Notes under the pieces: model-generated
Seen by the model: the letters and a program-made list of their open reading frames with translations, nothing else
Told to the model about the DNA's origin: nothing
The model's database searches: none
Origin: Pseudorhodobacter turbinis
Lineage (GTDB): Bacteria; Pseudomonadota; Alphaproteobacteria; Rhodobacterales; Rhodobacteraceae
NCBI RefSeq assembly: GCF_005234135.1
Contig: NZ_CP039965.1
Location: 868,001 to 932,000 of the forward strand
DNA length: 64,000 nucleotides
Direction: 5' to 3'
Translations under genes and position numbers: made by a program
Part shown: positions 2,965 to 35,862 of the stretch, one piece after another
How positions within the stretch are numbered: the stretch's first letter is position 1
Layout of the letters: every line of letters starts with the position of its first letter

Positions 2965-3297
2965 ATGACACAACGCAAACATATCCCGTCTTATACGGCT
3001 GAGTTCCGCGCGCGCGGCGTTCGGCTTTTCAATGAACAACGCTCGGAATATCGCAGTGACAATGCTGCTTATCAGGCAATTGCACCCAAGCTGGGCTGTG
3101 CTCCTGATAGCCTGCGGGGATGGTGCCGTCAGTCTGAACGCGATGCTGGTGCCCGCAACGGTCCCACCTGTGAGGAGAAGGCCCGGATCAAAGAGCTTGA
3201 GCGTGAGGTTCGGGAACTGCGCCAAGCAAATGAGATTCTGAAGAAGGCTTCTGCGTATTTTGCTCAGGCGGAACTCGACCGCCCGTTCAGGAAATGA
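2965..3297 (+). CDS. IS3-family transposase OrfA
   Basis: 110 residues. The N-terminal helix-turn-helix (YTAEFRARGVRLFNEQ, APKLGCAPDSLRGW) binds the element ends. It is followed by a leucine-zipper-like segment (ELEREVRELRQANEILKKASAYF), the usual OrfA arrangement. The last codons overlap the OrfB start by 4 bp in the -1 frame, so a fused OrfAB made by frameshift is possible. Confidence 0.9.
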   Translation: MTQRKHIPSYTAEFRARGVRLFNEQRSEYRSDNAAYQAIAPKLGCAPDSLRGWCRQSERDAGARNGPTCEEKARIKELEREVRELRQANEILKKASAYFAQAELDRPFRK

Positions 3298-4199
3298 TTT
3301 CATTCATTGAAGATTACCGCACGGACTTTGGTGTCGGGTCGATCTGCAAGATTTTGCGGGTCGCACCATCGTCCTACTATGCAAATTCGGCGATCAGACG
3401 AGATCCCCGGCTCGCCTCAAACAGGGCGCGCCAAGACGTAACGGACAGCGTGGAAATCCGGCGCGTTCACGATGAAAGTCGTGGCCGCTATGGCGCCAGA
3501 AAGGTCTGGCACCAACTGCGCCGTGAGAGCAAGGACATCGCCCGATGCACTGTCGAACGCTTGATGAAAGTTATGGGATTACAGGGCGTTGTTCGCGGCA
3601 AGCCAGTCATCACGACGAACCCCGATGCCTCTCAGCCGTGTCCGGACGATAAAGTGAACCGCGAATTCAAAGCACAATCCCCAAACCAGCTCTGGGTCAG
3701 TGACTTCACTTATGTTTCCACATGGCAGGGCATGGTTTACGTCGCATTTGTTGTCGACGTCTTCTCTCGAAGGATCGTCGGCTGGCGGGTCTCAACATCG
3801 ATGACAACAGCCTTTGTGCTCGATGCCTTGAACCAGGCGATCTGTCAGCGCAGCCCTGAAAAAGGCGGCGGGTTGATACATCATTCCGACCGCGGATCTC
3901 AATATTTGTCCATTAAATACACTGAGCGATTGGCGGACGCTGGGATCGATCCATCTGTCGGAACCGTGGGAGATTCCTACGATAATGCCCTCGCTGAAAG
4001 CATCATTGGCCTGTTCAAAACTGAGGTTACAAAGTTGCTCGGCCCATGGAAATCAATGGGCCAGCTTGAATGGGAAACGCTGAAATGGGTCGATTGGTAC
4101 AACACCAAGCGCCTGCACAGTGCCATCGGATATGTCACGCCGCATGAAGCAGAGGAGATGTTCTATGCAACCTTGAACCCAAATGAAAAAGCAGCCTAA
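3294..4199 (+). CDS. IS3-family transposase OrfB (DDE integrase core)
   Basis: 301 residues. An rve-type DDE core is present: first Asp in WVSDFTYV, second in HHSDRGSQY, Glu in NALAESIIGLFKTE. The tail RLHSAIGYVTPHEAEE is standard for the family. It starts in an ATGA overlap with OrfA. There are no internal stops, so the element may still be active. Confidence 0.92.
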   Translation: MISFIEDYRTDFGVGSICKILRVAPSSYYANSAIRRDPRLASNRARQDVTDSVEIRRVHDESRGRYGARKVWHQLRRESKDIARCTVERLMKVMGLQGVVRGKPVITTNPDASQPCPDDKVNREFKAQSPNQLWVSDFTYVSTWQGMVYVAFVVDVFSRRIVGWRVSTSMTTAFVLDALNQAICQRSPEKGGGLIHHSDRGSQYLSIKYTERLADAGIDPSVGTVGDSYDNALAESIIGLFKTEVTKLLGPWKSMGQLEWETLKWVDWYNTKRLHSAIGYVTPHEAEEMFYATLNPNEKAA

Positions 4200-4616: not shown

Positions 4617-4699
4617 CTTTTGTGGTTGCCGCCCATATTGCAAGAAGTTTTTGACCCTGTTGGGGTGTGATCGAGTGCGAACTTTTGTCAGGCCTCAAG

Positions 4700-4880
4700 A
4701 TGCGGCATTTCCAAAAGCCGCGGGCCGGGATGGTGATCAGCGGATCGGGTCCAAATCTCTACACCGAGCTTTCTTACTCTCAGGGTCTTACTGGTTTTCC
4801 CTATCCGGATCTGTTCGATCGTTTTGCCCATTCAGGTCGTCGTCTTCTTACACTCCCTTGGCACCGTCGCTAGCAGGTTG
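4700..4880 (-). ncRNA. candidate IS1111 guide RNA (bridge/seek RNA), copy 1
   Basis: Non-coding region downstream of the transposase. Blocks conserved with copy 2 are GGATCGGGTCCAAAT, CGAG and CTGGTTTTCC (4742-4800, read on the plus strand). The variable block CTCTACA at 4757-4763 equals the right flank at 6005-6011, and GGGTCTT at 4783-4789 is the reverse complement of the left flank AAGACCC (4611-4617). Transcription direction is inferred from the transposase. The RNA ends are not determinable from sequence. Confidence 0.65.
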
Positions 4881-4946
4881 ACATGAACATCATGCCGAGC
4901 CCACCAGCGCCGGATCCCTGTAATCTTCGTTCTTCGTTAGCATCGC

Positions 4947-5918
4947 CTATATTTGGCGGGCCATTTTGTTGGCCAGCGCGATCGCAAGCAGCATCATGGG
5001 TTTGCGCTCCAACATTCGTGACAACCAGCTGCCCTCCAAAATGGTTCGCTGCCCAAGCCAGCCTAATCGCGACATTGCGCCAATGATCAGGAGACGTCGG
5101 ATATCGGCTTGGCCAGCCTTGGTCATCCGCCCCAAACGTTCCTTGCCTCCAGAAGAATGTTGCTTGGGAACAAGACCCAACCAAGCCGCAAAGTCGCGTC
5201 CAGTTTTGAACTGTTCCATGTCTGGGCCGAAAGCTTCCACGGCAACGGCCGTCAGCGGTCCAACACCCGGCATGGTCTGAAGCCGGCGCGCCCTGTCTGA
5301 CTCGGCGGCCAGCGTCTTGAGTTTTGTGGTGCGCTCGATGACACGCGCCGTTTTTTCTGCAATCTGCGTCAGCAGATCCAAGCACTCCTCGCGGATAAGT
5401 GCATGCAAGTCGACGGTCTCATCTTCTACAAGGGCCGTTATGCGATTGAGGTGGTGCATTCCTACGGGAAACACATGTCCGTGCTCATATAGAAGCGCCC
5501 GCAATGCATTTACATCCGCGGTCCGCTGATGAACCAGTCGTTCACGGCCACGGAATAAGGCTGCGCGAGACTGCTGTTCGACCGTTTTGGGTTCAACAAA
5601 ACGCATCTCCGGCTGGCGGGCAGCGATGACGATCGCTTCAGCATCAGCAGCATCATTTTTCTGACGTTTAACGAACGGGCTAACGTACTGTGGCGCGATC
5701 AGTTTTACCTCATGGCCAACTGCTTCCATCTCGCGCGCCCAGTAATGCGCGCTGCCGCAAGCTTTAAAAATGACCAGGCAGGGCTCCTGCTGAGCCATGA
5801 ACACAGAAAACTGCGTTCGCGTCAGCCTTTTGCGGAACTGAACCTCCCCCGTTCGAGGGGGACCATGAACCTGAAAAACATTCTTTGCCAGATCGACCCC
5901 AATCATCATATCCTTCAT
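4947..5918 (-). CDS. IS1111-type DEDD transposase, probably inactive
   Basis: 323 residues from ATG at 5918 (MKDMMIGVDLAKNVFQVHG) after a GGACGGCGAG leader. The DEDD domain shows D in GVDLAK and the QKNDAADAEAI block, but the catalytic Glu of the usual MEAC motif is Lys (IFKACGSAHYW, Lys52); copy 2 has MEAC. The C-terminal Tnp_20 part with PGVGPLTA and GRDFAAWLG follows. A TAG at 4947-4949 replaces the Trp codon seen in copy 2 (ARTVWAL). Without it the frame would run to 4890 and end LVGSA. Two independent lesions suggest a dead enzyme that could only be complemented in trans. Confidence 0.8.
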   Translation of the reverse strand: MKDMMIGVDLAKNVFQVHGPPRTGEVQFRKRLTRTQFSVFMAQQEPCLVIFKACGSAHYWAREMEAVGHEVKLIAPQYVSPFVKRQKNDAADAEAIVIAARQPEMRFVEPKTVEQQSRAALFRGRERLVHQRTADVNALRALLYEHGHVFPVGMHHLNRITALVEDETVDLHALIREECLDLLTQIAEKTARVIERTTKLKTLAAESDRARRLQTMPGVGPLTAVAVEAFGPDMEQFKTGRDFAAWLGLVPKQHSSGGKERLGRMTKAGQADIRRLLIIGAMSRLGWLGQRTILEGSWLSRMLERKPMMLLAIALANKMARQI

Positions 5919-6004
5919 CTCGCCGTCCTCCTCTTCGCGTGGCGTTGAACAACACCACTTTGGCACATTACGATGCCGTCTTGGGAGGGCGGCACCCACT
6001 CCAT

Positions 6005-6091
6005 CTCTACAACCGTTGGAAGTGGTGGGGTGACATGGGCGTCTTCGCCCGAATGATGGACGGATTGGCCCCAATGGCCCTGACCGAAAAG
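6005..6091 (+). pseudogene. IS5-family transposase, internal fragment after the IS1111 insertion
   Basis: Continues the gene begun at 4402: LYNRWKWWGDMGVFARMMDGLAP. A frame change follows (NGPDRK in another frame) and the remaining two thirds of the transposase are deleted. The fragment abuts the permease gene, whose original upstream region has therefore been replaced. Confidence 0.75.
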
Positions 6092-10323: not shown

Positions 10324-11152
10324 GGTTCTGTCGCAAACTTTTGCGATCTTTCGTTTGTTGGCTGATTTTGCGACATGGTTCTCAAACAAGCAAGCAACAG
10401 GATGTATCGGATGTCGGTTGATTTCAAGGGAGCCCATTATCCTAAAAGCGTAATCCTGTGCGCGGTTTATTTCTATGTGCGATATAGAGTTTCCTAACGC
10501 GACCGGGAAGGAATCATGGAGGAGCGTGGAGCTGAAGTTGACCATGCAACCTTGAACCGTTGGGTGGTTAAGTTTGCGCCGCTGATGGCGGCACAAGCGC
10601 AGTCCCGCAAGAAGCCAACCGCCAAATCTTGGCGCATGGACGAAACCTACATCAAGGTTAAAGGCAAATGGACCTATTATTACCGGGCGGTCGACAACAC
10701 AGGAAAAACCCTTGATTTCATGCTGTCTGAGCGTCGCGACAAGGCGGCGGCCCGTCGATTTTTCAAGCGCGCGATTGGCAAAAATGGCGTGCCTGACCGT
10801 GTCGTCATCGACAAGAGCGGCGCCAATCTGGCGGGTCTGCAAAGCATCAATGTGATCCTGAAGTTCACGGGCTCAGGCAACAGCATCAAGATCCTGCAGG
10901 TCAAATACCTCAACAACATTATTGAACAGGACCACCGCTTCGTAAAGCGGATCACGGGCCCAATGCTTGGCTTCAAGGCCTTCCATTCTGCCGAGGCTAC
11001 CTTGGCTGCGGTCGAGACCGTGCACATGAATGACCCGAAGGGGAAAATCTATGCCAACGGCCTCACCGCGTTTCAGCAGTTTGCTGCGCTCGCAGCATAG
11101 GTATGTCCAGGCTATGCCCGCACTCAAACTCCAACAAAATTTGCGACAGAAC
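10324..11152 (+). mobile_element. IS6-family element (copy 1), inactivated
   Basis: Terminal repeats GGTTCTGTCGCAAA at 10324 and its inverse TTTGCGACAGAAC ending at 11152. No 8-bp target duplication is visible. The left side is the tmm downstream region and the right side is the middle of an IS66 transposase, so it marks a deletion or rearrangement joint. Confidence 0.85.
10375..11100 (+). pseudogene. IS6-family transposase with a nonsense mutation
   Basis: Begins MVLKQASNRMYRMSVDFKG. An ochre TAA replaces the Tyr codon in RVSYRDLEGIMEE, as read from the intact copy at 18469-19191. After it the frame reopens (from 10516) and keeps the DDE core: MDETYIKVKGKW, VVIDKSGANLAG and NNIIEQDHRFVKR. 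One extra codon is present near the C terminus compared with the other copy. Confidence 0.88.
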
Positions 11153-13737: not shown

Positions 13738-13899
13738 TGGACCTGTCGCGCTTTCGTGCCGCTCCAAGTGCTCGTTTAAGCCACCTTTCGTTCAAAAGCG
13801 ACCGGACTTTTCCAACCCAATGCTGAGTGGCGTCGTCGCGGATTGTAGAAGCCGTGTGTGGATGCCCCTTTCAATGCAAGAAGTTTTTCAGATTGCTTG

Positions 13900-14110
13900 G
13901 AACAAGTGATCAGTGCAGTCGTGTGTCCGGCCTTTGAATGCGGCTTTCACACGCCGCTGGCCTGTATGGTGTCCGTGGATCGGGTCCAAATCGTTGATGC
14001 GAGCACAAGGCTCCTGGCTTCTATCTGGTTTTCCCAACCCCGTCTTATGACCGTTGTTCCTTACTCTCCTTCGCCCTTCTCACATTGCCGGTTTACTCCA
14101 ACGCATGGTG
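13900..14110 (-). ncRNA. candidate IS1111 guide RNA (bridge/seek RNA), copy 2
   Basis: Same scaffold as copy 1: GGATCGGGTCCAAAT, CGAG, CTGGTTTTCC (13978-14034, plus-strand reading). The variable block at 13992-13999 (CGTTGATG) matches the right flank CATTGATG (16427-16434) at 7 of 8 bases. GGCTTCTA at 14016-14023 is the exact reverse complement of the left flank TAGAAGCC (13846-13853). The region lies between the transposase stop and the element end, as in the IS1111 group. Confidence 0.68.
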
Positions 14111-14920
14111 CAAAGCTTATGTAGCCAGCGGTGGAATTCGATAGTTCTCTTTTGTGGTTGTTAACGCCCAAACGGTACGGGCAAGCTTGTTTGCCAGGGC
14201 AGTCGCCACCAGCATACGAGGCTTGCGCGCCAGCATCTTGGCAAGCCATGATCCAGGTGGTGGACCTTTCCGGATGGCCCAACGGATGACGGCCATTGCG
14301 CCTGTGATCAGCAATCGCCTTATATCGCGCTGCCCCATTTTTGAGGTTCTACCCAGGATTTGTCGCCCACCGGTCGACTTCTGCCTTGGTACAAGCCCGC
14401 ACCAAGCTGCAAACTCACGCCCATTAGAAAATTCTTCCATTGGTGGCGCGAAGGCCTGAATGGTCGTAGCACACATAGGCCCAACTCCGGGGATCGTCAT
14501 AAGCCGTGATGTTGCTTCATCTGTTTTTGCTCGGCCTTTGATCTCGTGATCCAGCACCACAATCCTTTCGTCAAAAAGAGCGATCTGATCAATGTATGCT
14601 TGGCAAAGGCTTAGAATTTGCGCGGGCAGGTCAACCGCGACTTCATCAAAGCTGGCTATTATTCGTCTAAACTGAACCATCCCTTGAGCGACGACGACAC
14701 CGTATTCTGCTAAATGACCCCGCAAAGCGTTTACCAACTGGGAGCGTTGGCGGACAAATAAATCGCGTGTTCGAAAGACCATGCCCTGCGACTGTTGTTC
14801 TGCGCTTTTGACCGAGACGTAGCGCATCGTCGGGCGCGATGCCGCCTCAGCGATCGCTTCTGCGTCATTTGCGTCGTTCTTTTGACGCTTCACAAACGGC
14901 TTAACGTAAACAGGTGGAAT

Positions 14921-16118
14921 GGTAATCGCCCCCTTTTTAACGGGGTGCATCTGTAGAACTTACGCGGCCATTTTCAGTTTCATAGCGGGTGTGATGCCGC
15001 CGATGCCCATGTTCGGGCGGTCGTTGTTATATGTCCAGAGCCATTGTGTGGCCTGATCCTGAGCCTCCTCGATGCTTTCGATGATGTATTGATCCAGCCA
15101 TTCATGCCGAACCGTCCGGTTGTAGCGCTCGACATAGGCGTTCTGCTGGGGCTGTCCGGGTTGGATGTGCTGGATCGTAACACTATGTTTCTCAGCCCAT
15201 TTTCTCAGTGTTTCGCTGATATATTCCGGCCCATTGTCGACCCTGATCGTGCCCGGTTTTCCGCGCCATTCGATAATGCGATCAAGGCTGCGGATGACCC
15301 GTTCGGCAGGGAGCGAGAAATCAACCTCGATCCCCAGCCCTTCGCGGTTGAAGTCGTCCAACACATTCAAAAGCCGAAAAGCCCTGCCGTCGCCGAGGCG
15401 ATCCGCCATGAAGTCCATGGACCAGGTCACATTCGGTCTGTTCGGGACCGCCAGAACGTCAGGCTTCTCCCGTTTCAGCCGCTTGCGCGGCTTGATGCGC
15501 AGGTTCAGTTCCAGCTCACAGTAGATCCGGTAGACCCGCTTGTGGTTCCACGGATGCCCCTTCACGTTGCGCAAATGCAGGAAACACAGGCCAAATCCCC
15601 AAGTCTTGCGCGCATCCGTCAGCCCTGTCAGCAGATCGGCGATCACCTCGTTCTCGTCTTTCAGCTTCGGGCTGTAACGATAGCAGGTCTCGCTGACCTC
15701 GAAGGCCCGGCACGCCAGCGCGATGCTGACGCCCCGTCGCTCTACCGCCGTTTCGGCCATCTCGCGGCGCTGAGATGGCCCCGTTACTTTTTTCCGAGGG
15801 CTTCCTTCAATAAGTCCGCCTGCATGCTCAGATCTGCATACATCCGCTTCAGCCTGCGGTTCTCTTCCTCCATGGCTTTCATCTGGCTGACCATGGATGC
15901 ATCCATGCCACCATACTTCGCACGCCATTTGTAAAACGACGCATTGCTCATGCCATGTTCACGGCAAAGCTCGGCCACCGGCACACCACCTTCGGCTTGG
16001 CGCAGGATCGCAAGGATCTGGGGTTCGCTATATCTGGTCATTTTCATTCAAAATCTCCTCGTTCATCTTGCCGAGAAAATTCTACTTCCGCAGCCCCTTA
16101 CTTTCGGGGGGGATTACC
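14921..16118 (-). mobile_element. IS3-family, IS407-type element (copy A)
   Basis: 1198 bp bounded by GGTAATC...GATTACC with further inverted C/G-rich ends. It is flanked by a perfect 4-bp duplication GAAT (14917-14920, 16119-16122), the size expected for the IS407 group. It sits inside the IS1111 transposase gene. Copy B at 34665-35862 has the same length and the same deduced proteins, in opposite orientation. Confidence 0.92.
14960..16047 (-). CDS. IS407-type transposase OrfAB (programmed -1 frameshift)
   Basis: OrfA (16047-15784, 87 residues, [20 protein letters not shown]) carries the HTH and a coiled-coil tail. It ends GGA AAA AAG TAA; the A-AAA-AAG heptamer allows a -1 slip into OrfB, which continues [14 protein letters not shown]. 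OrfB holds the DDE core: [19 protein letters not shown], and Glu in [14 protein letters not shown]. Identical in deduced sequence to copy B. No lesions seen. Confidence 0.9.
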
Positions 16119-16426
16119 GAATAAGGCGCGCCTCGTGGCCAAGCTTGCCAATCTCACGCCCCCAATAATGGGATGTAGCGCAAGCCTCCATCGCAACAAC
16201 GCACTTTGGAAGCTCACTCAGGAACGCGGTAAGCTGAGGGCGCGACAATTTCTTGCGGAACACGACAGAACCATCAGCGGCAGCCCCGTGCAGCTGGAAG
16301 CTCCGTTTTGCTAAATCAATTCCTACTATGCTAACATTCTCCATGGATGCTCTTCCTTTGTATGACAGTTTAAGCTGCTATCATTCTGGCACATTGCGAT
16401 GCCGCCGGGTGGGGCATCCACCCCAT

Positions 16427-17141
16427 CATTGATGTATTCAAAGATCGCCATCTCGGCCTGCCTGCGCGTTTCCCAAGATCTGCGCCAGATCAGTTCCGCT
16501 TTGATGGTTTTGAAGAACGTCTCAACAGCCGCATTGTCATAGCAATTTCCTTTGCCACTCATGGACACTTTGAAGTCGTGCTGTCGCAGGATTTTCTGAT
16601 AGTCGTGCGAACAATATTGCGATCCGCGATCCGTGTGATGAATGCAGCCCTTCGGCGGCGCTAGGAAGGCTATTGCCATGTTCAATGCCCGGATCGCCAG
16701 ATCCCGTTTCATGCGGTTACTTATGGCCCAGCCGATCACGCGCCTTGAATGCAGGTCCAGTATCACAGCGAGATACAGCCATCCCTCACGCGTCCAAATA
16801 TAGGTAATGTCACCAGCCCATTTCTGGTTTGGTTGGTCCGCTGAGAACTCACGGTCCAGCAAGTTCGGCGCAATATTGAACTTATGATTGCTGTCCGTCG
16901 TGGCTTTATGTTTGCGCGTTCTGACCACAGATATACTGTTCTGGCGCATCAAACGCCCCACGCGACGATGGCCAATATCCAAGCCTATCTCTTTCAGTTC
17001 TTCAGTCATGCGCGGCCTGCCATAGCTGCCAAGGCTGAGACGGGATTGTTCTTTGATATGTGCCAAGGTGACCATATCAGACCGTTGTCTGCGACTGCCT
17101 GGGCGGTTAGGCGAGCGCCCGTAATCCGCGCGCGCTGACAT
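16427..17141 (-). pseudogene. IS3-family OrfB, 5-prime part (3-prime part at 13776-13852)
   Basis: Encodes RQRSDMVTLAHIKEQSRLSLGSYGRPRMTEEL, then the DDE core with WAGDITYIW, HHTDRGSQYCS and AAVETFFKTIKAELIW, ending at EYIN where IS1111 inserted. The missing end, FYNPRRRHSALGWKSPVAFERKVA and stop, is found at 13852-13776 on the same strand, so the gene is complete apart from the insertion. Confidence 0.88.
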
Positions 17142-18449: not shown

Positions 18450-19242
18450 CCCGCTAGCCTGGGCATACCTATGCTGCGAGCGCAGCAAACTGCTGAAACG
18501 CGGTGAGGCCGTTGGCATGGATCTGCCCCTTTCGGGTCATGTGCACGGTCTCGATCGCAGCCAAGGTAGCCTCGGCAGAATGGAAGGCCTTGAAGCCAAG
18601 CATTGGGCCCGTGATCCGCTTTACGAAGCGGTGGTCCTGTTCAATAATGTTGTTGAGGTATTTGACCTGCAGTATCTTGATGCTGTTGCCTGAGCCCGTG
18701 AACCTCAGGATCACATTGATGCTTTGCAGACCCGCCAGATTGGCGCCGCTCTTGTCAATGACGACACGGTCAGGCAGGCCATTTTTGCCAATCGCGCGCT
18801 TGAGAAATCGACGGTCGGCGGCCTTGTCGCGACGCTCAGACAGCATGAAATCAAGGGTTTTTCCTGTGTTGTCGACCGCCCGGTAATAATAGGTCCATTT
18901 GCCTTTAACCTTGATGTAGGTTTCGTCCATGCGCCAAGATTTGGCGGTTGGCTTCTTGCGGGACTGCGCTTGTGCCGCCATCAACGGCGCAAACTTAACC
19001 ACCCAACGGTTCAAGGTTGCATGGTCAACTTCAGCCCCACGCTCCTCCATGATTCCTTCCAGGTCGCGATAGGAAACTCTATATCGTACATAGAAACAAA
19101 CCGCGCACAGGATTACGCTTTTAGGATAATGGGCTCCCTTGAAATCAACCGACATCCGATACATCCTGTTGCTTGCTTGTTTGAGAACCATGTCGCAAAA
19201 TCAGCCAACAAACGAAAGATCGCAAAAGTTTGCGACAGAACC
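18450..19242 (-). mobile_element. IS6-family element (copy 2), one end truncated
   Basis: The right end keeps TTTGCGACAGAACC (to 19242). The left end lacks the GTTCTGTCGCAAA repeat; similarity to copy 1 stops near 18450, at GCCTGGGCATACC. Loss of one end should prevent independent transposition although the transposase is intact. Confidence 0.75.
18469..19191 (-). CDS. IS6-family transposase, intact
   Basis: 240 residues starting MVLKQASNRMYRMSVDFKG. Zinc/HTH-like N-terminal part with YRVSYRDLEGIMEERG, then the DDE catalytic core: Asp in RMDETYIKVKG, Asp in RVVIDKSGAN and Glu in NNIIEQDHR. It is the undamaged version of the gene at 10375-11100. Confidence 0.92.
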   Translation of the reverse strand: MVLKQASNRMYRMSVDFKGAHYPKSVILCAVCFYVRYRVSYRDLEGIMEERGAEVDHATLNRWVVKFAPLMAAQAQSRKKPTAKSWRMDETYIKVKGKWTYYYRAVDNTGKTLDFMLSERRDKAADRRFLKRAIGKNGLPDRVVIDKSGANLAGLQSINVILRFTGSGNSIKILQVKYLNNIIEQDHRFVKRITGPMLGFKAFHSAEATLAAIETVHMTRKGQIHANGLTAFQQFAALAA

Positions 19243-34664: not shown

Positions 34665-35862
34665 GGTAATCCCCCCCGAAAGTAAGGGGCTGCGGAAGTA
34701 GAATTTTCTCGGCAAGATGAACGAGGAGATTTTGAATGAAAATGACCAGATATAGCGAACCCCAGATCCTTGCGATCCTGCGCCAAGCCGAAGGTGGTGT
34801 GCCGGTGGCCGAGCTTTGCCGTGAACATGGCATGAGCAATGCGTCGTTTTACAAATGGCGTGCGAAGTATGGTGGCATGGATGCATCCATGGTCAGCCAG
34901 ATGAAAGCCATGGAGGAAGAGAACCGCAGGCTGAAGCGGATGTATGCAGATCTGAGCATGCAGGCGGACTTATTGAAGGAAGCCCTCGGAAAAAAGTAAC
35001 GGGGCCATCTCAGCGCCGCGAGATGGCCGAAACGGCGGTAGAGCGACGGGGCGTCAGCATCGCGCTGGCGTGCCGGGCCTTCGAGGTCAGCGAGACCTGC
35101 TATCGTTACAGCCCGAAGCTGAAAGACGAGAACGAGGTGATCGCCGATCTGCTGACAGGGCTGACGGATGCGCGCAAGACTTGGGGATTTGGCCTGTGTT
35201 TCCTGCATTTGCGCAACGTGAAGGGGCATCCGTGGAACCACAAGCGGGTCTACCGGATCTACTGTGAGCTGGAACTGAACCTGCGCATCAAGCCGCGCAA
35301 GCGGCTGAAACGGGAGAAGCCTGACGTTCTGGCGGTCCCGAACAGACCGAATGTGACCTGGTCCATGGACTTCATGGCGGATCGCCTCGGCGACGGCAGG
35401 GCTTTTCGGCTTTTGAATGTGTTGGACGACTTCAACCGCGAAGGGCTGGGGATCGAGGTTGATTTCTCGCTCCCTGCCGAACGGGTCATCCGCAGCCTTG
35501 ATCGCATTATCGAATGGCGCGGAAAACCGGGCACGATCAGGGTCGACAATGGGCCGGAATATATCAGCGAAACACTGAGAAAATGGGCTGAGAAACATAG
35601 TGTTACGATCCAGCACATCCAACCCGGACAGCCCCAGCAGAACGCCTATGTCGAGCGCTACAACCGGACGGTTCGGCATGAATGGCTGGATCAATACATC
35701 ATCGAAAGCATCGAGGAGGCTCAGGATCAGGCCACACAATGGCTCTGGACATATAACAACGACCGCCCGAACATGGGCATCGGCGGCATCACACCCGCTA
35801 TGAAACTGAAAATGGCCGCGTAAGTTCTACAGATGCACCCCGTTAAAAAGGGGGCGATTACC
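34665..35862 (+). mobile_element. IS3-family, IS407-type element (copy B)
   Basis: 1198 bp, GGTAATC...GATTACC, same length and deduced proteins as copy A at 14921-16118 but inverted. The flanking 4 bp are TGGG and CCCC, so there is no target duplication. This suggests a deletion or recombination next to the element after insertion. Confidence 0.92.
34736..35823 (+). CDS. IS407-type transposase OrfAB (programmed -1 frameshift)
   Basis: OrfA 34736-34999 and OrfB in the -1 frame to 35823, joined by slippage on A-AAA-AAG at 34990-34996, giving KKVTGPSQ at the junction. The DDE residues are intact ([23 protein letters not shown]). Deduced sequence identical to copy A, pointing to recent transposition. 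Confidence 0.9.

Follow-up and report, generated by a model that had tools for sequence, protein, structure and literature searches.

An IS1111-group insertion sequence of Pseudorhodobacter turbinis with a predicted guide RNA that matches its insertion site in an IS3-family transposase gene

Guide RNAs of insertion sequences were described in 2024, and target guides, their order, their programmability and their natural redirection have already been published (Siddiquee 2024, PMC11187229; Durrant 2024, PMC11208160). The IS1111 group is defined by a transposase of 330-350 amino acids with a GL-P----S(t)G motif. In passages of the same report, the seekRNA elements ISEc11, ISKpn4, ISPa11 and ISPst6 have a non-coding region downstream of the transposase gene (tnp), subterminal inverted repeats and tips of 7 bp and 3 bp, and two target words lie in one folded RNA, the top-strand complement first (PMC11187229). 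For ISEc11, RNA supplied in trans restores movement of an element without the region, and natural redirection between relatives is also described there (PMC11187229). The bridge RNA of IS621/IS110 is described as carrying both target and donor guide sets, which pair with both strands and overlap on the core (PMC11208160, PMC11208158).

We analyzed a 64,000-nucleotide stretch of contig NZ_CP039965.1 of Pseudorhodobacter turbinis (positions 868,001 to 932,000), referred to here as the window, which contains two diverged elements, copy 1 and copy 2 (Table 1). Copy 2 shares the listed features of the four seekRNA elements and, like the IS621/IS110 bridge RNA, shows words for the target and putative words for the donor. 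It differs from the elements in the passages of the Siddiquee report (PMC11187229) in belonging to another lineage, in that the targets here are IS3 and IS5 transposase codons, and in a putative downstream donor word that those passages do not contain. IS621 as described (PMC11208160, PMC11208158) has its RNA upstream of tnp, the left target guide first and a CT core. Here the RNA follows tnp, the right target guide comes first, and the transposase strand carries an NG core; copy 2 is thus not of the IS621 type (IS110 group).

With high confidence in the explanation as a whole, we propose that the region encodes an IS1111-type guide RNA specifying the element's own insertion spot. The 3' non-coding part of the element would be transcribed as a seekRNA or bridge RNA, the folded transcript would form a stem interrupted by an internal loop, and a DEDD transposase with this guide RNA would insert the circular element at the target core. 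The 7-bp left tip with its core would come from the element; at the right junction the core is most likely the target's. The sequence itself shows the anatomy, a covarying RNA structure and the agreement of guide words with the target and with the element ends; transcription, transposase binding, circle formation and strand exchange are expected by analogy with published relatives. Copy 2 is a well-supported new natural example of the mechanism published in 2024, and the comparisons below, held-out set included, put the seekRNA/bridge-RNA code to a natural test in a lineage that passages of the published work do not name.

Anatomy of copy 2 and membership of the IS1111 group

Copy 2 is 2,574 bp long when the IS3-type insert in its transposase gene is counted. 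The home genome (4.25 Mb, 4 contigs) would, judged by its closest relatives, fall near Rhodobacteraceae/Roseobacteraceae. A search of it revealed four intact copies elsewhere (L002-L005), and an intact relative from this genome measures 1,372 bp. The two DEDD transposase domains, PF01548 and PF02371, were present both in intact L003 and in the C-terminal piece of copy 2, and this piece scored well above the cut-off of 140 bits for the NCBI family "IS110 family RNA-guided transposase" (Table 1). The transposase of intact relatives has 341 residues, and inspection of its translation by eye identified the motif GLVPRQKSTG. The subterminal inverted repeats, about 11-13 bp in IS1111 elements, are exact over 11 bp in copy 2 and L002-L005. 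The tips are asymmetric, 7 bp on the left and 3 bp on the right, a register that itself served to set the flanks; the target joined in this way reads through the IS3 gene. A long non-coding region follows tnp, and the right guide precedes the left in both window copies, which is the IS1111 order (top-strand complement 5' of bottom-strand complement). These features place copy 2 in the IS1111 group of the IS110 family; its repeats, its tips and the position of its non-coding region are as described for IS1111 elements in passages of PMC11187229. The transposase frame of copy 1 (4947-5918) seems damaged, with a TAG about 24 residues short of the end of its relative L007.

Table 1. Features of copy 2 and copy 1, with positions in the window
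Feature	Position	Strand	Sequence	Remarks
Copy 2, IS1111-group insertion sequence	13855-16428	minus		ends from comparison with intact L002-L005
Copy 2 left subterminal inverted repeat	16411-16421	minus		preceded by 7-bp left tip 16422-16428
Copy 2 right subterminal inverted repeat	13858-13868	minus		followed by 3-bp right tip 13855-13857
Copy 2 transposase frame, C-terminal piece	14117-14950	minus		PF02371 and PF01548; NF033542, 231 bits
IS3-family insert splitting copy 2 transposase gene	14921-16118	minus		1,198 bp; 4-bp duplication
Copy 2 predicted target-binding module of seekRNA/bridge RNA	13973-14045	minus		covariance model R1, 71.9 bits, E 4.9e-15
Copy 2 right target guide and core	14015-14022	minus	AGAAGCCA	5' side of loop; pairs with right target half
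Copy 2 left target guide and core	13992-13999	minus	CATCAACG	3' side of loop; CATCAA/CG matched 8/8
Copy 2 putative right donor guide region	13963-13971	minus	CACCATACA	weaker
Copy 2 putative left donor guide	13920-13927	minus	GACACACG	same word type in 54/55 aligned elements
Copy 2 target, left half	16429-16434	minus	CATCAA	
Copy 2 target, right half and core	13847-13854	minus	CGGCTTCT	
IS3-family transposase gene hit by copy 2, N-terminal side	16429-17141	minus		NF033516, 283 bits for 16329-17141
Copy 1, diverged element of IS1111 group	4619-6006	minus		within IS5-family gene; ends by copy-2 rule
Copy 1 predicted target-binding module	4738-4812	minus		model R1, 75.7 bits
Copy 1 guides	4757-4764; 4782-4790	minus	GTGTAGAG; TAAGACCCT	within target-binding module
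Copy 1 putative left donor guide	4682-4689	minus	GACAAAAG	

Correspondence of guides and targets in the window and in relatives

An earlier note, made from the sequence of the window, had reported two blocks of copy 2 that match its flanks. The four words it quoted were found where it had placed them (CGTTGATG at 13992-13999, GGCTTCTA at 14016-14023, TAGAAGCC at 13846-13853 and CATTGATG at 16427-16434), but its register at one flank needs correction, since positions 16427-16428, which it counted as "right flank", are part of the element's 7-bp left tip. These two bases account for the single mismatch in that note; an error in the guide was considered as its cause and rejected, because the base sits in the element's tip. 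At the other junction the core reads CG (13853-13854), and with this core the left guide matches 8/8. Without the element tips the joined target is CATCAA-CG-GCTTCT, and in this register the right guide matches 7/8, the first core base being the mismatch.

The resulting match of 15/16 in copy 2 was equalled by 1 of 4,000 dinucleotide shuffles when both words were required in order and spacing within the non-coding region; copy 1 likewise matches 15/16, and 0 of 4,000 shuffles equalled it in the same scan. Two diverged copies thus follow one guide rule, as had been claimed, and the expectation that chance matching is unlikely holds under the shuffling check proposed with it.

Relatives were collected from the home genome, 394 family genomes and named genomes. 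This first set comprised 140 loci, 135 of them with a transposase match; 87 had a repeat pair in register and 48 were dropped, as were L039 and L078 for a misplaced repeat, leaving 85 loci in use. An unanchored 6+6 scan had a chance background of about 9/12; taken alone, it failed to tell true from swapped flanks in many relatives, for example in L007, a relative of copy 1 (p = 0.11). Because this background was too high, the scan was replaced by tests anchored on the scaffold, which do separate relatives from permuted or swapped flanks. With the scaffold positions fixed, the 59 non-redundant sets of guides agreed with their own flanks at 7.95/12 bases versus 3.54 when permuted (maximum of 2,000 permutations: 4.25), in a version whose single fixed right-guide register undercounts the right side. 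Later scoring used 5 left bases instead of 6 and permitted two right registers, with permutations treated equally; 39 non-redundant elements, drawn from 46 of 67 distinct scaffolds with the 21 more distant ones excluded, then scored 8.97/11 versus 3.82 (maximum of 5,000: 4.90). As these settings were chosen after the first anchored result, the figure of 8.97 is tuned, while that of the held-out set is not.

For the held-out set the rule was fixed before the loci were fetched, from the same 394 genomes that had supplied part of the first set. Among 60 loci, 50 had an RNA match, 40 of these had repeats and 32 were non-redundant (losses of 10 without RNA match, 10 without repeat pair and 8 redundant). 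These 32 elements matched 7.88/11 guide bases versus 3.86 when permuted (sd 0.30, maximum of 5,000: 5.06). The main count retains five elements whose left tip indicates a misplaced repeat; without them, 27 elements score 8.67 versus 4.15. Both guides of L145 recur in the first set, and four further elements share a left or a right guide with that set; the 28 elements with guides new to the first set score 7.79 versus 3.85 (maximum 5.14). Left-side misses in the held-out set were L170 and L193 (1/5 each) and L194 and L145 (2/5 each). The elements' own flanks ranked best or tied best in 27/39 of the first set and 21/32 of the held-out set, and thus not best in about a third of relatives.

The anchored tests support the reading of the blocks as guides for two target halves. 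The comparison of predicted with actual insertion sites in related copies, proposed in the earlier note, therefore came out in its favor, and the target code it had offered holds across relatives; the code is not new, being the published seekRNA/bridge-RNA code. That 8-base words are easily found near any insertion, and that the matches are chance, could appeal to the unanchored scan but is extremely improbable given the window shuffles and the held-out score at fixed scaffold positions, which no permutation approached.

Four of 15 listed plasmid matches were inspected individually. Plasmid pP36_b of Phaeobacter piscinae carries an element with the guide words of copy 2 and the same target. 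On two Sulfitobacter plasmids (one strain) and one Alloyangia plasmid, the right guide matches 9/9 and the left guide partially, 3 or 4 of 5 by our own count. In an E. coli search with a published element as positive control, no place covered 80% of the query; the single place examined was a broken relative and was not used.

The structure was written on 46 aligned non-coding regions and comprises 16 pairs in a basal stem, a 3-pair inner stem, an internal loop and a 4-pair hairpin. Two-sided changes occur in 13/16 pairs, with 106 two-sided cells versus 27.0 in shuffles. Paired cells amount to 93.5%, versus at most 46.8% with the partners slid, a control biased towards the structure because it was drawn on those very sequences. 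Free folding of 13974-14052 returned the matching shape (z -1.75), and a 146-nt stretch of the long RNA folded no better than shuffles (z 0.79). Covariance model R1, built from the same 46 of 67 distinct scaffolds without the 21 more distant ones, matched the window at E <= 0.01 exactly twice, once in each copy and on the minus strand (Table 1); in the home genome at least 14 matches were obtained, with 150 of 1,399 first-look candidates scored.

This structure bears on whether the blocks might work as DNA, by homology between element and target or as a binding site, and not as RNA guides. The RNA is known here from sequence alone, which leaves room for such a reading. Against it, the blocks lie within the loop of a strongly covarying structure, one for each strand sense, and resemble RNAs described in passages of PMC11187229 as reprogrammable and co-purifying with IS1111 transposases. 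We regard action at the DNA level as highly unlikely, and a guide RNA as the better explanation.

Junction cores and putative donor guides

In order to trace the origin of the core, five host genes were compared with their nearest uninterrupted relatives. The four best relatives of the L002 host (86-90% identical) all read CG, as does its right junction. TG was found both in the relative and at the right junction for L003 (97%) and L032 (87%). For L005 the relative (88%) and the right junction read CG, and weaker relatives (82-83%) TG. The nearest uninterrupted relative of L061 (84%, among 30 compared) reads TG, yet its right junction is CG. The left junction core was TG in all five hosts. A right core from the target and a left core from the element thus fit four of the five hosts, L061 being the exception, and are also expected from the published tips.

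Among 96 element rows, which are not independent and include some with misplaced repeats, 32 have unlike cores at their two junctions; in these the left guide agrees with the right-junction core 21 times and with the left-junction core 9 times. As in IS621 in passages of PMC11208158, it is the first base of the core that is loose. One lineage (L191-L195 and L198-L200) combines a GG core in the left tip with CG in the left target guide and putative left donor guide, and its right junction shows GG, CG or TG; several states of the first core base are tolerated there.

A five-base word located downstream of the target module is identical to the final two bases of the right repeat followed by the 3-bp right tip. 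It was exact in 54/55 aligned elements with nine different tips, versus a permuted mean of 18.2 and a highest value of 28. The 55 elements are 46 of the first set and nine hand-picked held-out loci, and L145 among them equals L044 in its guides. A text-pattern anchor for this word had picked a wrong GGCC in some elements (62/77 exact, 5 more without anchor) and was replaced by alignment columns. More distant relatives contained their own tip word within a 70-base stretch in 22/22 cases; since 20 of these share the tip ATATA, its presence there is mostly conservation, and variation is tested by L115 and L140 alone. For the left tip, the complement of 4 tip bases occurs at the putative right donor region in 80/96 elements, a less clean counterpart in which one four-base type is not specific. 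Variation of guides with element ends, as in a two-loop bridge RNA, is thus seen strongly for the right tip and more weakly for the left.

Judged from these alignments, the downstream part of the RNA contains words that correspond to the element's ends; these most likely represent donor guides and would act as such. Alternatively, the target guides may be real and the downstream word a feature of right-end DNA, such as a repeated binding site, that tracks the tip in some other way. Passages of PMC11187229 report that an 82-nt seekRNA is sufficient for ISEc11 movement, and the word is located beyond the 75-nt target module, which sets the Durrant and Siddiquee reports at odds on this point; the tip shared by most distant elements would also suit a DNA feature. 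However, the word follows nine different tips almost without exception, and a complementary counterpart exists for the left tip, if a less clean one. We consider a DNA feature unlikely, though it keeps some weight, and retain donor guides as the preferred reading.

More broadly, IS1111 RNA is probably bispecific in general: a 3' domain past the approximately 80-nt seekRNA reported as sufficient would carry a left donor guide that tracks the right tip and core, which would give the long seekRNA its missing role. The same proposal assigns the left core to the element and the right core to the target, so elements like copy 2 would have a permanent T/C mismatch at the first base of the core, the loose position. 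Covariation evidence for an IS1111 donor guide is the addition made here, and it renders the purpose of the long seekRNA form testable. No later literature on IS1111 donor guides was recognized by title or start of abstract, which is weak evidence, as most subscription papers and bioRxiv were out of scope.

Target codons and neighboring mobile elements

IS4321 and IS5075, which are of the IS1111 type, sit in the ends of Tn21-family transposons. The present elements are similar in landing in another mobile element; the site is a transposon end there and a transposase coding sequence here. The families of the two target genes given in the earlier note, IS5 for copy 1 and IS3 for copy 2, were confirmed.

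An uninterrupted ATCAAYGGCTTYTAYAAYCC site was present in 54 of the 394 family genomes, and the site pattern read backwards had no match among the matches listed for these genomes. The residues I-N-G-F-Y-N-P are dictated by the pattern in frame and are no finding in themselves. Around the site, 26 of 30 fetched sequences share at least 10 of 18 downstream residues with an IS3-like reference, and 24 of 30 share at least 8 of 20 upstream residues; a stop was in view in 6 of the 30. Copy 2 has its target in a run of codons conserved among IS3 transposases. In the home genome no exact unoccupied ATCAAYGGYTTYTA remained; two uninterrupted IS3 copies (L234, L235) carry ATCAATGGGTTC, one right-half base off (GGGTTC for GGCTTC). 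The copy 1 site, as it stands in an uninterrupted relative, codes for K-T-L-Y-N within an IS5-family transposase (112.8 bits against a cut-off of 110). As read from the translated sites, the copy 2 guides address the I-N-G-F-Y codons of IS3-family transposases, and those of copy 1 the K-T-L-Y-N codons of IS5-family transposases. By aiming at conserved transposase codons in other insertion sequences, RNA-guided elements would find many landing sites at small cost to the host.

The window is dense with mobile elements. The IS3-family insert within copy 2 has an identical 1,198-bp copy in inverted orientation at 34665-35862, 18.5 kb away, and the pair is a possible substrate for inversion. A further inverted repeat pair, 10324-11114 and 18455-19242, consists of 706 nt at 98% and 77 nt at 95%. 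An ALIL pseudoknot (RF01497, 109.6 bits) at 3252-3368 adjoins an IS3-type reading frame starting at 3294. The home genome also contains a second IS110-family lineage (L012-L018 and L025-L028) with GTAACGGGG/CCCCGTTAC ends, several copies of which are preceded by a TTCTGGTTATGA-like sequence resembling the end of another gene.
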